From IMG/VR virus record IMGVR_UViG_3300027668_000061, positions 1 to 30,928 of that record: a stretch of DNA of 30,928 nucleotides; one strand, written 5' to 3'. A program made the translations under genes and the position numbers. Position 1 is the first letter of the stretch; each line of letters begins with the position of its first letter. This document shows positions 18,259 to 27,215 of the stretch, one piece after another. Source of the DNA: a virus. A model generated the notes under the pieces. It had not been told where the DNA came from. It saw only the letters and a list, made by a program, of their open reading frames with translations, and made no database searches.

Positions 18259-21081
18259 TTAGTATAATCTATTTGCCGTATCGTTTGCGCGTTCTATTGC
18301 AATTAATAAATCTTGACCTTCTAAGCGTATTTGTCCGCCAACTGTTACGTTAGTAGTACCGCCGCTTTTATCAATCATTCCTTGCAATTTATTTAATGGT
18401 GCGATAACTTCCGGATTTGATTTTGCGCCCGGATATTCCCCAACTAATCCCATTGTAGGACCGGATACAATACCACCTTTAGCAAATGCAGTCGCACCGC
18501 CACCGCCTGAACCAATTTTTCCGGCTTGCGAACTTGCAAACGCTCCTAATGCTAGCAATGCAACACCGGCCGCAATTGCACCAACTCCCTTAAATACAAG
18601 TAAAGATTCTTTGATTTTTTCAATACCAATACCAATTCCAATTGATAATTTCCCCATTTGCGAAGCCATATTTCCGATTGTCTTTAAAACAACCTTTGAC
18701 AAACTTTGCGCTAAATTTCCACCGCTTGACAATGCTTTACCTAAAGCCTGACCAATTCCAACCGCTAAGTCATTTAATCCGCCGGTTATAATTGAATTCA
18801 TGCCTTCGTTAAAAGCTAAGGCCTTTTCCATTGCTGACGCTCTTTGTTCGTCGTTTACTAATGCTACGGCTTCACCTTGTGCCTTTAATAATTCAACCGT
18901 TGATAACCCGTTTTCTGTCGCTAATCTAATTAAATCCTGATAATGTAACTTTATTCTTTGAATTTCTAATTTTTTACGTTCCGCATCACTTGAATGTGTA
19001 GAATCGGCAATTCTTTGTTTTATTTCTAAAAGTCTATTTTCTTCGTCCGATTCGATTTTTGCTAATGACGCCGTTTTTGCTTTTAATAAAGCCTTTTGTT
19101 TTTCCGCGTCTCCTTTAGCTGCTTTTATTAAATCGTTATAATACTTTGTTTTTTCTTGTTTTAGCGCCTTATGTGCTAATTTTTCGTTTGTTATAAGCGC
19201 TTTATTTATCTCATCGCTAATAGCCTTTATTTTTTCCGCGGCTTCAGGGTCTATAACGGGAGTTATTTTAAATTTAGAGCCTTTTGGTCCACCATTACTA
19301 TTACTACTGTCACCGGTTCCGACAACGGTTCCGCCACTATCTGAAGTTTCGGCCTTTGGTACAACTTCGGCCTCAACTTTTATTCTTTCAATTGTTTTTT
19401 TCTTAATAGAATCGTTAAAATTATCGACAACCGTATTCGCTAAGACTTTAGCATTTGATTTTACGCCATCTAATGCGTCTGAAACACCACCACTTAACGC
19501 ATCGCCTATTCCTGAAAAACCCTTTTTTATTCTTTTAGTGTCTAGCGTAAAAATACCTATTAAGATATCGCCCACACTTCCCAAAACTTTTAATGCTGCT
19601 TTTCCGTACGCTTTAATTATAGCAATTAAACTTTTAAAAACAAATTTAGCAACTGCAAACAAAGTCTTAAATCTAAAAATAAGGTTACTAATTGCAAACT
19701 GCAAAGGCAAAACATTGTTATATAAATCAATGAAATAATTAGCAATGCCAATAATTATTTTTTTTATTGGTTTCCAAAATGTAATAATCACCGCAGCTAC
19801 CGCCGTTAATCCTATTATAATTAAACCTACCGGCCCCATCATCAAAGTAATTGCCGCACCTATTGCCGGCGCCATCGTTAATAAAGTCCCAAGTACAAGA
19901 AGTACGGGACCAATTGCCGCAACAATTCCAACAAATGCAAGTATCATTTTCTTAGACCTTGCTGAAAGACTGTTAAAAGAATCGCTTAAACGCGTAAAAA
20001 ATGCGCCTATTTTTTCAATTGCCGGTGCTACCGAAACTAATATAACTTGACCAATTCCTAACAATGATGATTTCATTGCGTTTAATCCTTTTGTCATCTT
20101 AAAAGACGCGGCTTTCGAAGTCGCTTCAAACGCTTTATCTGTGGCACCCATTGAGTTAGATAATGCGCCAAACAATCGACGATTATCTTCTAATCCCGCA
20201 CCCGTTAAATCTAAAACCCCTTTTAATGCTCTAATATTTGGAAAAATTGCCGTTGTATCTTGGCCGGTTTGTTTTAACCCGCTTTGTAACATTTCTAACG
20301 TTTGCAAAAGTCCGTCATCTCTCAATGATTTTTGGACGCTTTCCGTTGTCATGCCCATTTGTGCCAACGCTGCAACCGCTCCCGTAGTTGGTTTCTTTAT
20401 AGACGCTAAAATTGCGTTTAACTGTGTTGCACCTTCTGACGCATTGGTTCCGGTTTTACTCATTGCAGCCATTGCCGCACCTATTTGGTCAAAACTAACA
20501 CCCATATTTGAGGCGATAGGAATAACACCACCCATCGCGCCCGCTAATTGAGACGCTTCTAATTTACCTTCTCGAACCGCAGCCGTTAATATATCGGTTG
20601 CACCGGATGCGCTTAAATTTTCCGCTCCGTACGCATTTAATGCCGACGTTGATAAATCCGCGATTGTTTTCGTATCACCTAATCCAACCGCTGCAGCCTT
20701 TAAAGACATGTTTAAGACGTCCATTGCATCAGAACCACGTAAACCCGCCGAAGTTATAAAGAAAAGCGCTTCGGCGGCATCATTTGCACTTTGTCCCGTA
20801 TCAACCGCCATTTTTTTAGCAGTTTCACCCATTTTGGAAACCTCACCTTCAGCAACTCCAACTAACGCCGTTATTGACGTCATTGATTTATCAAAATCAA
20901 ACGCCATTTTTGTAGCCGCAGCACCTACCGCAACTAACGGCAACGTTAATGACATTGTCATTTTTTTACCGGTTGCCTTCATTTTAGTACCAAAGGCCGA
21001 AAGTTTGGCGCTTGCGCCTTTAATTGCAGTATTTAACCCCGAGGCGTCTCCGGTTATTTTTACTCTTAAATTTTCGCTCAT
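18259..21081 (-). CDS. Tail tape measure protein, TP901 type
   Basis: 940 aa, the longest gene. Residues ~1-60 contain 'LRVKITGDASGLNTAIKGAS'; residues 60-350 match the TP901 core: 'FDFDKSMTSITALVGVAEGE' (62-81), 'GQSANDAAEALFFITSAGLR', 'LEASQLAGAMGGVIPIASNM', 'TGTNASEGATQLNAIL'. Hydrophobic segments cluster at ~380-440, then coiled-coil Lys/Glu-rich helices (~600-740) and a Gly/Ala-rich end. It sets tail length and helps DNA entry. It follows the chaperone pair, as in other siphoviruses. Plus-strand open frames inside are shadows. Confidence 0.95.
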   Translation of the reverse strand: MSENLRVKITGDASGLNTAIKGASAKLSAFGTKMKATGKKMTMSLTLPLVAVGAAATKMAFDFDKSMTSITALVGVAEGEVSKMGETAKKMAVDTGQSANDAAEALFFITSAGLRGSDAMDVLNMSLKAAAVGLGDTKTIADLSTSALNAYGAENLSASGATDILTAAVREGKLEASQLAGAMGGVIPIASNMGVSFDQIGAAMAAMSKTGTNASEGATQLNAILASIKKPTTGAVAALAQMGMTTESVQKSLRDDGLLQTLEMLQSGLKQTGQDTTAIFPNIRALKGVLDLTGAGLEDNRRLFGALSNSMGATDKAFEATSKAASFKMTKGLNAMKSSLLGIGQVILVSVAPAIEKIGAFFTRLSDSFNSLSARSKKMILAFVGIVAAIGPVLLVLGTLLTMAPAIGAAITLMMGPVGLIIIGLTAVAAVIITFWKPIKKIIIGIANYFIDLYNNVLPLQFAISNLIFRFKTLFAVAKFVFKSLIAIIKAYGKAALKVLGSVGDILIGIFTLDTKRIKKGFSGIGDALSGGVSDALDGVKSNAKVLANTVVDNFNDSIKKKTIERIKVEAEVVPKAETSDSGGTVVGTGDSSNSNGGPKGSKFKITPVIDPEAAEKIKAISDEINKALITNEKLAHKALKQEKTKYYNDLIKAAKGDAEKQKALLKAKTASLAKIESDEENRLLEIKQRIADSTHSSDAERKKLEIQRIKLHYQDLIRLATENGLSTVELLKAQGEAVALVNDEQRASAMEKALAFNEGMNSIITGGLNDLAVGIGQALGKALSSGGNLAQSLSKVVLKTIGNMASQMGKLSIGIGIGIEKIKESLLVFKGVGAIAAGVALLALGAFASSQAGKIGSGGGGATAFAKGGIVSGPTMGLVGEYPGAKSNPEVIAPLNKLQGMIDKSGGTTNVTVGGQIRLEGQDLLIAIERANDTANRLY

Positions 21082-21110: not shown

Positions 21111-21144
21111 AAAAAAAAAGACGCCCTATCCGAACGTCTTTTTT
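21111..21144 (-). terminator. Rho-independent terminator after the tail chaperones
   Basis: On the minus strand AAAAAAGACG (21144-21135) pairs with CGTCTTTTTT (21123-21114), a perfect 10-bp stem with an 11-base loop, ending in nine T in all. The stem is symmetrical and could also work on the plus strand. It overlaps the chaperone stop region and may attenuate transcription into the tape measure. Confidence 0.8.
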
Positions 21145-21482
21145 ACTGTCATTTTATTATATTTTTCGGAAAACGCTTCCATTTGTTTAATAGTTGATTT
21201 TGGTGCGTCCCTTTTCTTTTTTCTTAAATTATCAATAGGCAACTCAAATAAATCGTGAGGCTTTAACATTTGCGATTTTTTTTCACATTGGACATTATAA
21301 ATCATCGATGCCAAATATCGAGTTTGCTCCCAATTTAAATTTGTTTTACTATGGTACGCTTCAGCCATTAAAGCATTTTCGCGCCACGTTTGCCGCCAAA
21401 AATTATCAGGCAAAACCCCAATTTGCCCAATATAATAATCGGTTAAAGTTTCAAAATTTATTGTTTCTTTGACGGCTTCGGC
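21126..21482 (-). CDS. Tail assembly chaperone, frameshift-encoded C-terminal part (gpT-like)
   Basis: This frame has no good start of its own: the only candidate near the conserved part is TTG at 21413. Instead it stays open upstream through the end of the gene at 21458-21838 in the -1 frame, joining at the slippery site 21482-21488. The extension encodes 'ETINFETLTDYYIGQIGVL' just before 'PDNFWRQTWRENALMAEAYH', which reads as one domain. The fusion product would be about 237 aa (119 + 118). In lambda the GT fusion bridges the tape measure and tail tube during assembly. It lies directly before the tape measure, as expected. Confidence 0.82.
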   Translation of the reverse strand, partial: AEAVKETINFETLTDYYIGQIGVLPDNFWRQTWRENALMAEAYHSKTNLNWEQTRYLASMIYNVQCEKKSQMLKPHDLFELPIDNLRKKKRDAPKSTIKQMEAFSEKYNKMTVKKTFG

Positions 21483-21838
21483 TTTCCCGGAATTTTTGAT
21501 TCGGCCGGCGCTAATGCGTTACCTAAAATTTTTGATTCCGACATTGTTTCGACAATACCATTAATTGTATCGGCGTCGATTTCGTCCATCCATTGACCGA
21601 CTGAATAAACATTGTAATCAACTTCATTACTATTTTCTAAGTCGTAAGCCAAAGCCGCGGAATAGATTAAAGACCTTAAAGCATTAATTGAAATTCCTGA
21701 TTCGAAAACTGAGCCAATTTCTTGTAATGAAATATTCATTTGTTCGGTAAATTCCGACCAAAAATTCATTGAAAAATGTAGTGTTTTCTTTTTTCCGTTT
21801 ACGGTTATATCAATATAACCTCTTTTTTTGTTTGTCAT
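21458..21838 (-). CDS. Tail assembly chaperone, short form (gpG-like)
   Basis: 126 aa: 'GYIDITVNGKKKTLHFSMNF' then a helical core ('SEFTEQMNISLQEIGSVFES', 'LRSLIYSAALAYDLEN') and a Lys/Pro-rich tail (104-126). Small acidic-core helical proteins at this place, between tail tube and tape measure, are the gpG-type chaperones that coat the tape measure during tail assembly. A GGGAAAG site at codons 118-119 lets some ribosomes enter the -1 frame. A terminator precedes it (21867-21898), so its promoter must lie in the 29-bp gap or read-through occurs. Confidence 0.82.
   Translation of the reverse strand: MTNKKRGYIDITVNGKKKTLHFSMNFWSEFTEQMNISLQEIGSVFESGISINALRSLIYSAALAYDLENSNEVDYNVYSVGQWMDEIDADTINGIVETMSESKILGNALAPAESKIPGKPKPSKKQ
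21482..21488 (-). promoter_or_regulatory. -1 ribosomal frameshift site, GGGAAAG
   Basis: Read in the chaperone frame as G GGA AAG (codons 118-119), the X XXY YYZ layout, and identical to the lambda gpG/gpT slippery heptamer. After the slip, reading continues in the frame of the 21126 gene without a stop to 21126. It sits 22 bases before the zero-frame stop. A GCC-rich stretch follows, but no clear downstream pseudoknot was found. Confidence 0.85.
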
Positions 21839-21922: not shown

Positions 21923-22330
21923 TTAGTTTTGTGATTTTACTACTGCACCCGTTAAAGTGATTGAACCGCTATAAGTTACCGCTGATTCCATTTCTGCGCT
22001 CATTTCTACGCTTGAAAGAAAACCTTCTGCCGTATATATTGCGTCTCCCGTTTCTGCCGTTCCAAAAACACAAGTTAATGAAGTTCTTGCTAATAAAAAA
22101 TCCGCCATTTGAACCGCGTTCGATGCATCATCGTAAGCAATTAAGCCTTCAAATGATACCTCACCCCCTTTAACACCGCCGATAAACTCAGAAAATCCGT
22201 TAGAATCTTTTGTAGTCGCTTCGGGTGTGTCCATTGATAATGATAGTGAGCAAGACGTTGTGTGTCCTACGGTTACGGTTTCAACTTTTAAAAGTAAGTT
22301 CGTTCCGTTAAATACTCCGGTTGTAGCCAT
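21923..22330 (-). CDS. Major tail tube protein, TP901-1 type
   Basis: 135 aa, all-beta: 'GVFNGTNLLLKVETVTVGHT' (5-24), 'SLSLSMDTPEATTKDSNGFS' (28-47), 'GGVKGGEVSFEGLIAYDD', and the terminal 'SAVTYSGSITLTGAV'. This is the pattern of TP901-1-like tail tube subunits that polymerise into the tail. It follows the endolysin and precedes the chaperones. Its own terminator and a TATATTTAC box 33-41 bases before the ATG suggest it is transcribed as a single strong unit. Confidence 0.88.
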   Translation of the reverse strand: MATTGVFNGTNLLLKVETVTVGHTTSCSLSLSMDTPEATTKDSNGFSEFIGGVKGGEVSFEGLIAYDDASNAVQMADFLLARTSLTCVFGTAETGDAIYTAEGFLSSVEMSAEMESAVTYSGSITLTGAVVKSQN

Positions 22331-22394: not shown

Positions 22395-22832
22395 TTACAA
22401 ATTACTTAGATATTTATATTCTTTTTGAACGTCAAAAGACGGACACGCTTTATTAGAATATTCGTTATGACCTTGAATTTTAGAATTAGGATATTTAATT
22501 AATAAATCTTTTAACAAGCAATCTAAAGAAATTATTTGCTCCGGTGTCCTCGTATCTTCTGCGGGAAATTTTTTCCTTTTGTTCTTTATATTAGAAACCC
22601 CGCCAACGTATGAAATACCGATTGAATTTTTATTCTGTCCTTTTGTATGCGCTCCAATTCTTTTCTCGGGCCTACCTTCTATAATAGAACCGTCTAAATA
22701 AATTAACCAATGATAACCGATATCGGACCAACCTCGACCATCTACGTGCCATCTACGAATTTCGTCAACATCATAATGTTTACCTTTAGATGTTGCGGTA
22801 CAATGAATAATTATTTTATTTATTTTTCTCAC
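22395..22832 (-). CDS. Endolysin: N-acetylmuramoyl-L-alanine amidase, T7 lysozyme type
   Basis: 145 aa, one Amidase_2 domain that cuts the MurNAc-L-Ala bond of peptidoglycan at lysis. 'IIIHCTATS' gives zinc ligand His10; 'HNEYSNKACPSFD' gives His122 and Cys130 with catalytic Lys128; Tyr40 in 'DIGYHWLIY' corresponds to T7 Tyr46. H122, K128 and C130 share the spacing of T7 lysozyme. The start codon is GTG at 22832, overlapping the membrane-protein gene before it by 17 bases, so translation is probably coupled. No signal peptide, so a holin is needed for release. Confidence 0.93.
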   Translation of the reverse strand: MRKINKIIIHCTATSKGKHYDVDEIRRWHVDGRGWSDIGYHWLIYLDGSIIEGRPEKRIGAHTKGQNKNSIGISYVGGVSNIKNKRKKFPAEDTRTPEQIISLDCLLKDLLIKYPNSKIQGHNEYSNKACPSFDVQKEYKYLSNL

Positions 22833-23323: not shown

Positions 23324-25021
23324 TTATATTGTTGTTAATGCTATTAATTCTGAATTTGTTAAAAGGGTATTAAAAAGTTTAAATTCTCTCATAATACCTT
23401 TACCACCATAGGCATTATATGCTGAGGCCGTATCCATTAATCTAACCCCATCAGCTAATCCAATAGGTAAAGTAAATGTTGCGGTATTTGTGTTTTCTAA
23501 AACTCCATTTACATAAATTTTTAAATCACCACTTTTATAGCTTAAAGCTATTTTTACTCTAACACCTAAAGCAAAATTTTGAGTAGATACACTATAAAAA
23601 GTACCACTTGCAAAAACACCGGCAACGTATGCGTTAGATAGTTGTTTAATTATAACGAGAGTTGATACAGTTGAATTATGACTGATAATATTTGTTGTTG
23701 TTTCTATTAAACCATTTATTCCATTGCCCAAAGGCGTATAATCAACAAAAAGAACTCCTTCCGTTAAACTTACTTGTTTTGATAAATTTTGTGAATTAGT
23801 TTCGCCTAACCTTGTAACTCCCGCCGATTCGCCATAATTAGGGATGTAACTTGTACTATAAGGTTTTTGTTCTAATTGTGCGCCGAATATGTAAACTCCC
23901 GAAGTTCCGTTTCCCGTGTATGAGTCAGAACCATTCGCATCAGCTAAGTAAACCCTTGAAAGGTATGATGTTCCGTTTGTAGTACCCGTAATAGAGCATC
24001 TATACCATCCGTCAGAAATTAACTCTATTTTTGCAGTACCCGAACCTATCGTCCCAACTACTCCATTTTTAACATCAAACCAAACATTTGCTTGTCCACT
24101 TCCTACTCCCGCATTTTCTAAACGCATTTTAATAAAATCTCTACCATCTGCTTTCGCTAAAAGACTAAAAGTGTGAGCTACTCCGCTTACAGTAGTTTCT
24201 TGAGATCTTATTGTATGAACTGAATTAGAACTGTTTTCAACCAACTTAAAAGCACCTAAAGGAGTATTTGCACTTGGCGAGGCGAAACCTTGTACTTCTT
24301 TTACTGAAACGTTGTCGATTTCGTAATCACTACCGTTATTATTTGCAGAAATAATACCTATTGACAAATAGGTGCTTTCAGCATAAATATTACCTATATA
24401 TGTTGTTGTTGATGAAGTAGGTGTTAAATTAAAACTTTCTGAACTTGAAGAATTTGAAGTAAATCCACCAATTTGAACAGGTGTTGCTGTGCCTGTATTT
24501 AACCTTACTGTTAGTGAAATTAAATACGTTTTCCCTATCGTTAATTTATTAGGTAATTTAACTTGTTGATTTCCTGTTGTAAAATTAATAAACATTTTAT
24601 TCGAAACTGTCGAGTTAATATTAAAAGTTGGTGTACCAATTCCTTGAATCCAATTATTAGCACCACTCATATCACTATCAGTACCTGTAATCAATTCACT
24701 TCCCGCAGTACTCGGGTCTCCTTCAATACTCGCACCGCTTTTTGTCCAATAACTTTGACCAAACGCTTCTGAATATTGTATTAAGTTTGTAGACTGAGGC
24801 TCTGTTAACAAAGCACCTTTAGTATTCCCTAAATAATCCACTCTTGCAATTCCGTTTTCTACCTTTTCAATTAATCCCGCTTTATTTATTCTTGTAGCGG
24901 TTGATGCTCTTGAAGTCGTAAAAGGTAAAGGTTTAAAGTTTGCATTCTCATCATTATAAGCAAGAATAGAATCCTTTTTTGCCGCCCAATTTCCTGAACC
25001 AAATTTTACTGTGTTTGCCAT
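23324..25021 (-). CDS. LamG-domain fibre/receptor-binding protein, long paralogue
   Basis: 565 aa. Residues 1-100 form a phage spike/fibre N-terminal module with 'FTTSRASTATRINKAGLIEK' (34-53), 'RVDYLG', 'LLTEPQSTNLIQYSEAFGQS'. Two carbohydrate-binding-like beta-sandwich regions follow (about 105-240 and 250-400; both end with 'SYL' or 'DNVSVKE'-type strands). The C-terminal ~150 residues are a LamG/concanavalin-like domain with 'IYVNGVLENTNTATF' and 'MREFKLFNTLLTNSELIAL'. Its N- and C-terminal modules match those of the gene just before it, from which it is separated by 1 base. Probably binds host surface glycans. Confidence 0.83.
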   Translation of the reverse strand: MANTVKFGSGNWAAKKDSILAYNDENANFKPLPFTTSRASTATRINKAGLIEKVENGIARVDYLGNTKGALLTEPQSTNLIQYSEAFGQSYWTKSGASIEGDPSTAGSELITGTDSDMSGANNWIQGIGTPTFNINSTVSNKMFINFTTGNQQVKLPNKLTIGKTYLISLTVRLNTGTATPVQIGGFTSNSSSSESFNLTPTSSTTTYIGNIYAESTYLSIGIISANNNGSDYEIDNVSVKEVQGFASPSANTPLGAFKLVENSSNSVHTIRSQETTVSGVAHTFSLLAKADGRDFIKMRLENAGVGSGQANVWFDVKNGVVGTIGSGTAKIELISDGWYRCSITGTTNGTSYLSRVYLADANGSDSYTGNGTSGVYIFGAQLEQKPYSTSYIPNYGESAGVTRLGETNSQNLSKQVSLTEGVLFVDYTPLGNGINGLIETTTNIISHNSTVSTLVIIKQLSNAYVAGVFASGTFYSVSTQNFALGVRVKIALSYKSGDLKIYVNGVLENTNTATFTLPIGLADGVRLMDTASAYNAYGGKGIMREFKLFNTLLTNSELIALTTI

Positions 25022-25022
25022 A

Positions 25023-26201
25023 TTAGTATATTGTATAATTAAAGTTTAACGCCATAGCGTTGAATGTGGTAAAACTACTTAACGTCTCTAATTCTAAATC
25101 TGTTAAAGCGGTGTTGTAAACTCTTAAATCTTTTATTTTTCCTAAAAATGGAAACTCACCACCACCATAACTTGCGTTTATTTGATTAAGTCCCGAAAGA
25201 GATATTGCATTCGTATTTACTGCAACTTTCAAACCATTTACCCATAAAGCAATATCATTTGATTTATATTTTATAATTAATTTATTAAAGTTTGCTTGCT
25301 CTAAAAAAGACATTCCATAATTTAAAATTTTTACTCCCGACGAACTAAATATATCAACTACAATGCCCGAGTTTGCATAATACATACTTACCGCGTTACT
25401 GTTTGAGCCATTACTTAAACTCCATATACTCGACCCCGTTTGCCCTTGGTTTAATCTTGAAATTTCAAGATAAAAAACACCCTCTGAATTGTTTATATAA
25501 GCGTCAACCCCCGTTTTAAAGGCTGTTTCTGCATTTCGTGTTACACTTGTTCCCGTAGTTTTTATGTAAGATGTTGGATACGAGCCTTGTTCTACTTGCC
25601 ATCCCCATACTAAAACTTCATCCCCTACAACTGCGGGGTCGGGTATTTCTAATCCCGTATTTAAAGAACCACTTGTCATTATTGCAGTATGTTCAAACCT
25701 TGTCCATTCAGATGTAATACTAAATCTATCTGATGAATTTCCCCCTAATACAACTCTTAATTTTTTACCTATCGAACTACCAATACCTTTTACATAAATT
25801 GAGGCAGTATAACTACCCGCAGAAAATGATACAGCTTGATAAAAAAACGGGTCAGAAGTTGTTGCGGTTAATTTAGTTGCGTTTTGAGTGCCATCAGGAC
25901 TAATTGAAAAATTATCTAAAAATGTTCCATTCTTTGTCGGTGATAGGGATATTGCTTGAGAGTTTAATATAAAATTAGATCTCTGAGGCTCTAAAAGTAA
26001 ACTCGGACAAGTACTATCTAAATAATCTAAACGTGGAAAATTCGATTGTACGTTAGAAATTAAACCGCTTTTATCGACTCTCGTTGCAACGCTTCCACGT
26101 GAAAACTGTAAATCTGCGTCCCCGTTTGTAGGTAAAACAGAATATATTTTTTCCAATCCGTAACCCGAAGGTATCATTGCAATTGTTGGTTGTGTAGGCA
26201 T
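25023..26201 (-). CDS. LamG-domain fibre/receptor-binding protein, short paralogue
   Basis: 392 aa with the same layout as its neighbour but only one middle beta-sandwich: N-terminal module 'LQFSRGSVATRVDKSGLISN' (32-51), 'RLDYLDST', 'LLLEPQRSNFILNSQA'; a carbohydrate-binding-like region at ~90-230 ending 'VWGWQVEQGSYPTSYIKTTG'; and a LamG domain (~240-380) with 'ALWVNGLKVAVNTNAISL' and 'KIKDLRVYNTALTDLELETL'. The two may be duplicates that diverged to recognise different receptors or to occupy different places on the virion. Confidence 0.83.
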   Translation of the reverse strand: MPTQPTIAMIPSGYGLEKIYSVLPTNGDADLQFSRGSVATRVDKSGLISNVQSNFPRLDYLDSTCPSLLLEPQRSNFILNSQAISLSPTKNGTFLDNFSISPDGTQNATKLTATTSDPFFYQAVSFSAGSYTASIYVKGIGSSIGKKLRVVLGGNSSDRFSITSEWTRFEHTAIMTSGSLNTGLEIPDPAVVGDEVLVWGWQVEQGSYPTSYIKTTGTSVTRNAETAFKTGVDAYINNSEGVFYLEISRLNQGQTGSSIWSLSNGSNSNAVSMYYANSGIVVDIFSSSGVKILNYGMSFLEQANFNKLIIKYKSNDIALWVNGLKVAVNTNAISLSGLNQINASYGGGEFPFLGKIKDLRVYNTALTDLELETLSSFTTFNAMALNFNYTIY

Positions 26202-26729: not shown

Positions 26730-27215
26730 TTATTTTTTCCAACTTTTTACAATCTTTTCAGCCGAACGAGCGCCAAAATAACCGCCATAAACTAAAAGTA
26801 ATAACGAACTTAGTAAATCAATCCATTTATCGCTGATTTTAAAGCCATTTAAAGAACTATCTAATACAATATAGATAAATAGGGTTAGGGTTAAAAATGC
26901 TAACGTTAGGGGCCTGATATTTTGCGTTAAAAAACTGTCTGTTTTATTATCTGACTCCCAACGTTTAGTTACTTCATTCATTTCAATCAAATCGAATTCT
27001 AATTCTTTTAACAAAAGTTCTTTATCTTTTGGCTCAATATTATCATCGTTTTTTATTTTATTCGCTAATAATTTTAAGGAATCAATACCGGTAACATTTC
27101 CGGCAATTGTAAGAATTTCCGGCGCAATGTTTTTCCCTTGTTTAAATAACCACCTCAAAGCATCACCAACGCGAGTTGTGCCGTTTCTATCTTTGTATGA
27201 TTTTTTATTTGACAT
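26730..27215 (-). CDS. Holin, 3TM_holin family
   Basis: 161 aa. The N-terminal half is soluble and charged (helical, with a Lys/Glu-rich segment 70-105), followed by two hydrophobic segments, 'IRPLTLAFLTLTLFIYIVLD' (about 115-134) and 'DLLSSLLLLVYGGYFGARSA' (about 141-160), and a basic end 'KIVKSWKK'. This order is typical of 3TM_holin-type proteins of Bacteroidota phages, which open the inner membrane so the amidase at 22395 can reach peptidoglycan. It is 4 kb away from the amidase, with fibres between. Confidence 0.82.
   Translation of the reverse strand: MSNKKSYKDRNGTTRVGDALRWLFKQGKNIAPEILTIAGNVTGIDSLKLLANKIKNDDNIEPKDKELLLKELEFDLIEMNEVTKRWESDNKTDSFLTQNIRPLTLAFLTLTLFIYIVLDSSLNGFKISDKWIDLLSSLLLLVYGGYFGARSAEKIVKSWKK

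Follow-up and report, generated by a model that had tools for sequence, protein, structure and literature searches.

A predicted programmed -1 frameshift site followed by a covarying RNA stem in the tail chaperone genes of a phage family

The window analyzed here is in itself a virus record of 30,928 bases, and all the features described below lie on its minus strand. Between an upstream gene for a tail tube protein (21923-22330, PF06199) and a downstream gene for a tape measure protein (18259-21081, PF10145) lie two overlapping reading frames: a zero frame encoding a G-like tail assembly chaperone of 126 aa (21458-21838; stop codon 21460-21458), and a T-like part of 118 aa plus stop in the -1 frame (21126-21482), which is predicted to be read only as part of a 237-aa fusion product. 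The order tail tube, G, T, tape measure, together with the family matches, fits a lambda-type G/GT chaperone pair. All 46 G members examined matched PHROG 2115 (tail protein), and the G model searched against a viral model library gave, at rank 7, a hit named tail assembly chaperone (E 2.8e-4). In the fold search with G, the HK97 chaperone 2ob9 had the top VIA Z, but its value of 3.0 (rmsd 4.7, 79 residues aligned) was level with those of unrelated rows; Foldseek against the PDB with G gave no match at E 0.001, and a PDB sequence search using the G profile gave no relevant match. The T part matched PHROG 16333 (unknown function) and, weakly, Phage_tail_T and Phage_TAC_6. At E 0.1, Phage_TAC_6 was hit by 10 of 47 T members (best E 0.0018) and Phage_tail_T by 5 of 47 (best E 0.0058), with the scores of the window's own T falling below the curated cut-offs.

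Neither the G nor the T protein of the window had a match among 50,697 phage records, and with the tail tube protein as query the only named phage retrieved was Streptomyces phage phiSASD1 (two records). A search at relaxed settings pointed to Cellulophaga phage phi10:1, in which a candidate chaperone pair stands in a +1, not a -1, relation. In that phage (L346:2986-3685), the annotation omits the chaperone-like ORF that comes first behind the tail tube gene (gp085 missing); the next ORF lies in the +1 frame, and seven A in a row stand close to the overlap. A Bacteroidota host is hinted at, weakly, by a Cellulophaga phage protein that the G model matched. Contigs of the same phage family are also found inside MAGs labelled Rhodobiaceae, Gammaproteobacteria, and Woesearchaeota (L082-L084), a placement that is probably due to misbinning.

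In the window, the -1 frame stays open between 21518 and 21126, past the ORF1 stop. Because it is open only from 21518, and ORF1 ends at 21458, the shift must fall within 21518-21458. The sole in-frame X_XXY_YYZ in this overlap is the heptamer G_GGA_AAG (21482-21488), whose first G is the third codon base of the ORF 21838-21458 and which lies 28 nt before the G stop. A sequence-only reading of this DNA had proposed that GGGAAAG at this position, identical to the lambda G-T site and in the correct frame, leads into an open -1 frame with 23 extra codons before the TTG of the next gene, and that the second gene is not independent but yields a fusion of about 237 aa. Each of these points held: the heptamer and its phase are those of lambda, 23 codons separate the slip from the TTG at 21413, a shift at AAG gives 119 + 118 = 237 aa, and frame anatomy and relatives agree on the fusion. 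As a measure of chance, in-frame GGGAAA occurred at 3 of 6721 codon positions when the last 25 codons of ORF1 were left aside in 66 cluster representatives, compared with its presence inside the overlap (mean 11.5 codons) in 52 of the 66 clusters. Judged from these sequence features, a programmed -1 frameshift fusion in the window is very likely.

Relatives (L002-L345) were collected by five scans of virus contigs with G proteins and one scan of genome contigs. They are metagenomic contigs, and each virus scan contributed the best 80 of 180 to 427 relatives, so the counts given here are samples of larger sets. The 345 sources are the window plus 344 loci; L001, which repeats the window region, was excluded from the later set, and 4 of 164 were dropped from the earlier one. 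We set aside 16 of the 345 loci in which a complete ORF1 or the FW motif was missing: 11 lacked the FW motif (all ending GGGAAAG-TAA), 4 ran off the contig, and 1 had no ORF1. Both gene parts were found in 329 of the 345 loci listed, and ORF2 stood in the -1 relation to ORF1 in 329 of 329. All 224 unique sequences listed carried a shift-prone site inside the permitted overlap: GGGAAA(G/C/A) in 146, a run of nine A (A9) in 51, L337 being counted here, and N_GCA_AAG or G_GTA_AAG in 27. In L123, and likewise in L052-L054, the -1 frame opens exactly at the heptamer; in L025 it opens exactly at G_GCA_AAG, which places the shift there or later.

Conservation of the heptamer in related phages had been suggested as a check on the sequence-only reading, and loss of the heptamer together with an ATG of the second gene's own as evidence against it. 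GGGAAA(G/C/A) stood in 146 of the unique sequences and was replaced in the others by A9 (51 unique) or by N_GCA_AAG or G_GTA_AAG (27 unique, including the window's nearest). These 27, all among the 63 unique sequences of the window clade, had no conserved start of gene 2; their first ATG in the -1 frame came at codon 19 or later. Only one half of the contrary evidence was therefore present, and it does not overturn the reading. The clade comprised 36 sequences with G_GGA_AAG, 26 with N_GCA_AAG, and 1 with G_GTA_AAG, the last two kinds retaining only A_AAG of the heptamer. The Lys codon at the slip was AAG in 63 of 63 (21 of 21 clusters), as against 20% AAG elsewhere, and the codon before it ended in A, also in 63 of 63. 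A second A_AAG further on (TCA AAG) was rejected as the slip site: it is missing in the AGG-bearing L004-L006, L010, L014-L016, and L018, which leaves the first A_AAG as the only one that all share. Heptamers rich in A upstream of the site (A_AAA_AAC/T, e.g., in L004, L007, and L026) were likewise discarded as an explanation of the N_GCA_AAG class, being missing in L014, L017, L019, L023, L025, L030, and L034, among others. A review presents the A_AAG tetramer as the minimal -1 site, with IS1222 using a site of the NNA_AAG type (PMC5009743). In the trees, the window lineage (row L002), with G_GGA_AAG, nests inside the N_GCA_AAG clade (bootstrap/SH-aLRT 96/92 and 98/91). A single clade for all N_GCA/GTA_AAG rows was not rejected (p-AU 0.2), so regain of the heptamer and its parallel loss fit alike.

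Downstream of the slip site lies a long-range RNA stem. After a spacer of 5 nt (21477-21481), the 5' arm GCCGUCAAAGA (21466-21476) pairs with the 3' arm UUUUUGGCGGC (21392-21402), which encodes Phe-Trp-Arg. With q denoting the final base of the AAG at the slip and F the first base of the Phe codon, q+6 to q+16 (21476-21466) pairs with F+9 to F-1 (21402-21392), giving eleven pairs; the large loop of this outer stem holds an inner hairpin (21404-21432), which in the window also has 11 pairs. The 90-nt piece of the window starting at the stem folded at -25.8 kcal/mol (z -4.43). The z value of the window was weaker for a 102-nt piece with both flanks (-1.73), and 50-nt pieces gave averages of only -0.67 and -1.63. 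Measured against synonymous-codon shuffles, 33 of 66 clusters fell below -1.64.

Two main registers of the stem were recognized. Type I is that of the window clade and of outer sequences with different letters (e.g., L084, L094, L104, and L136). In type II, which characterizes a second branch, q+7 to q+13 pairs with a nearer partner, F-16 to F-22, in Gly-Gln-Val-Gly codons; a version longer by one codon (register -10) occurs in L251, L340, L342, and others. The 224 unique sequences listed divide into 81 of type I, 81 of type II, and 62 others (51 A9, 8 with register -10, and 3 with five-pair runs), against a background of 1.9% for a six-pair run at any other register. The stem begins 4-6 nt after the slip in every type seen. 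The spacers of the window (5 nt) and of the second branch (6 nt) lie within the 5-9 nt usual for frameshift signals (PMC7618472). The stem is retained where the heptamer is lost and is absent where the site is A9. The stem is likely to be a stimulator of frameshifting. The earlier lambda-type reading was right about the anatomy of the locus but took no account of the RNA stem conserved 3' of the slip site or of the slip site's own turnover.

Support for the structure from covariation was strong in the second branch and modest for the window's own type. In an alignment of 65 type II sequences (A2), the seven-pair helix was paired in 455 of 455 cells, 48 of them with double changes, a level reached by 0 of 500 shuffles; when the helix was slid by one column, pairing fell to about 50%. 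The number of pairs with double changes (3, reached by 105 of 500 shuffles) and the number of pair types (7, by 106 of 500) were not distinctive. RNAalifold predicted exactly the seven-pair type II helix. With substitutions placed on the tree, both sides of pair n=7 had changed 8 times, on an identical set of 8 branches, as a G-C/C-G flip (p 0.0025, the floor of 400 simulations), and pair n=11 showed 5 and 5 changes, three of them shared (p 0.0025). The codon combinations at n=7 were AGC/GGC in 39, ACC/GGG in 18, and TCC/GGG in 8, with 0 exceptions in 65. Since AGC and TCC both encode Ser, and GGC and GGG both encode Gly, the covariation at n=7 is not explained by selection on the protein. In type I, pairs n=6 to 9 were associated at p 0.005 or less, but with few changes (1 to 3 each), and the paired fraction taken alone clearly beat the null at n=9 only. 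The Arg codon of the type I 3' arm was CGG in 62 of 62 window-clade sequences versus 27 of 446 Arg codons elsewhere. The MAFFT alignment of the window's stem type (A3) misplaced the 5' arm of outer rows, and this type was therefore counted by fixed offsets. L088, L090, and L091, with five-pair runs, were added to the type I set by hand, and L083 and L166 (G_GGA_AAC), which were typed by register and fold as a local hairpin instead, were kept outside the covariation sets.

Frameshifting in tail chaperone genes is a standard textbook example and is generally presented as a slippery heptamer alone. In lambda G/GT, the gene order and the -1 shift at an identical in-frame G_GGA_AAG are the same as in the window, with the slip site 22 nt rather than 28 nt before the G stop; in the window's family a conserved, covarying 3' stem follows. 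The lambda sequence itself (L347:510-610) can form a long-range 8-bp stem starting from +8 (z -3.12 for 90 nt, 0.21 for 50 nt). Among 161 sequences, lambda and 160 near relatives, 21 were distinct, with 0 compensatory changes in this stem and some breaks; the set is too similar to decide. Alteration of the slip site of Lactococcus phage TP901-1 gives capsids without tails (PMC4493119), and in a survey, constructs with phage tail chaperone genes from an HK97-like cluster showed 6-7% shifting (PMC3711429). The gpG/gpGT pair of TP901-1 shares with the window an in-phase GGGAAAG but has no stable fold after it. The frameshift signal of E. coli dnaX also carries a Shine-Dalgarno-like stimulator. 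It resembles the present signal in having a slippery site followed by a hairpin stimulator (PMC3711429) and differs in gene and heptamer. The A_AAG shifts such as that of IS1222 (G_CGA_AAG) resemble the N_GCA_AAG relatives, not the window, in that only A_AAG is kept; NNA_AAG sites shift at a low level (PMC5009743), whereas here the gene is a tail chaperone gene and a conserved stem follows the site. Among the papers listed on tail chaperone frameshifting and RNA structure, none dealt with this phage family.

We weighed other ways in which the second frame could be expressed. Independent translation of gene 2, either from the TTG at 21411-21413 proposed by ORF callers or through coupling at the ORF1 stop, is very improbable. 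That TTG is present in the window, and among the 223 unique relatives listed an in-frame ATG lies between the slip and FW in 46, and some ATG, GTG, or TTG in 95. However, 128 of the 223 have none of these codons there, and the TTG is not conserved, being replaced by other codons in many relatives, so we rejected it as a start. Coding conservation, moreover, reaches past the TTG up to the slip site. In the 13 codons before FW that follow the ORF1 stop, mismatches between cluster representatives at the first, second, and third -1 codon positions numbered 606, 233, and 1063 in the window clade and 735, 673, and 2239 in the outer clade; their concentration at the third position indicates a -1 frame that is already coding before the TTG. 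Immediately after the slip, every window-clade sequence listed has the peptide xAVK(E). Production of the fusion by transcriptional rather than ribosomal slippage is a still more remote prospect for the window. All 51 unique A9 relatives listed have exactly nine A, always in the same phase, and nine is a known length for slippage by bacterial RNA polymerase, as in Thermus dnaX with its nine identical bases (PMC5009743). The A9 rows have no type I or II stem, their four clusters gave a mean z of -0.16 against synonymous shuffles (one at -1.75), and on a quick tree the A9 label needs two changes. The A9 lineages may use polymerase slippage, which would there be the putative counterpart of the Thermus case. 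The window and 172 other unique relatives, by contrast, lack an A9 run at the site, and GGGAAAG is not a run on which polymerase slips; transcriptional slippage can thus apply to the A9 relatives only.

A plain lambda-like shift, in which the heptamer suffices and the stem is incidental or serves, for example, mRNA stability or the damping of internal initiation in gene 2, is the more serious competitor, though we regard it as unlikely. In its favor, the shift in certain tailed phages, lambda-type shifts among them, seems to need no stimulator according to a review, which gives a ratio of 30:1 for lambda (PMC5009743); TP901-1 has the same heptamer with no stable fold behind it; and the function of the stem is a prediction from sequence. 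Against it stand the onset of the stem 4-6 nt past the slip in all types seen, pairing kept by covariation that includes synonymous changes, and the persistence of the stem where the heptamer is lost but not where the site is A9. We therefore strongly favor a programmed -1 signal of the lambda G/GT kind, accompanied by a long-range stem; events of this kind are known, but the signal is unusual. Most ribosomes would complete the 126-aa G-like chaperone, and a minority would slip back one base on G_GGA_AAG to make the 237-aa G-T fusion. The stem starts 5 nt past the slip, and its 3' arm, within the Phe-Trp-Arg codons, lies about 70 nt downstream; this structure probably makes the ribosome pause and thereby sets how often the slip happens. 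On the lambda model, G would be expected to coat the tape measure protein, with the T part recruiting the tail tube protein.

A history can be sketched tentatively, one that we think somewhat less than evenly likely, in which a single orthologous gene pair has had its signal rebuilt in several ways. The common state would be the canonical heptamer with a covarying stem. One clade would have kept the stem and lost the P-site half of the heptamer (N_GCA_AAG), leaving A_AAG and the stem to carry the shift, and the A9 lineages would have swapped the ribosomal shift for slippage by RNA polymerase and dropped the stem; between branches, the stem would have changed its 3' partner at a constant distance to the slip. 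With hundreds of natural variants, the slip site, spacer, and stem can be followed together on one phylogeny. Provided that the stem is functional, the family illustrates a critical protein ratio being held by the phage while its slip site changes, and provides a natural test of whether a stem compensates for a weak slip sequence and whether slippage by the ribosome and by the polymerase are interchangeable in one gene. For gene callers, the locus is a caution that gene 2 should not be taken as a separate gene started at TTG.

Scans for sigma-70 and Bacteroidota-type promoters near the slip site found nothing above chance, and Rfam had no match in the window. A terminator-like hairpin of 13 pairs followed by a T run (21144-21114, minus strand) overlaps the T frame at its end, just ahead of the tape measure gene. 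Elsewhere in the tail module, two adjacent genes (23324-25021 and 25023-26201, minus strand) each match PHROG 5939 (tail protein) and Laminin_G_3 and look like a duplicated lectin-bearing tail gene. An amidase gene and a holin-like gene (22395-22832 and 26730-27215, minus strand) lie within the same module, flanking the lectin-like genes.
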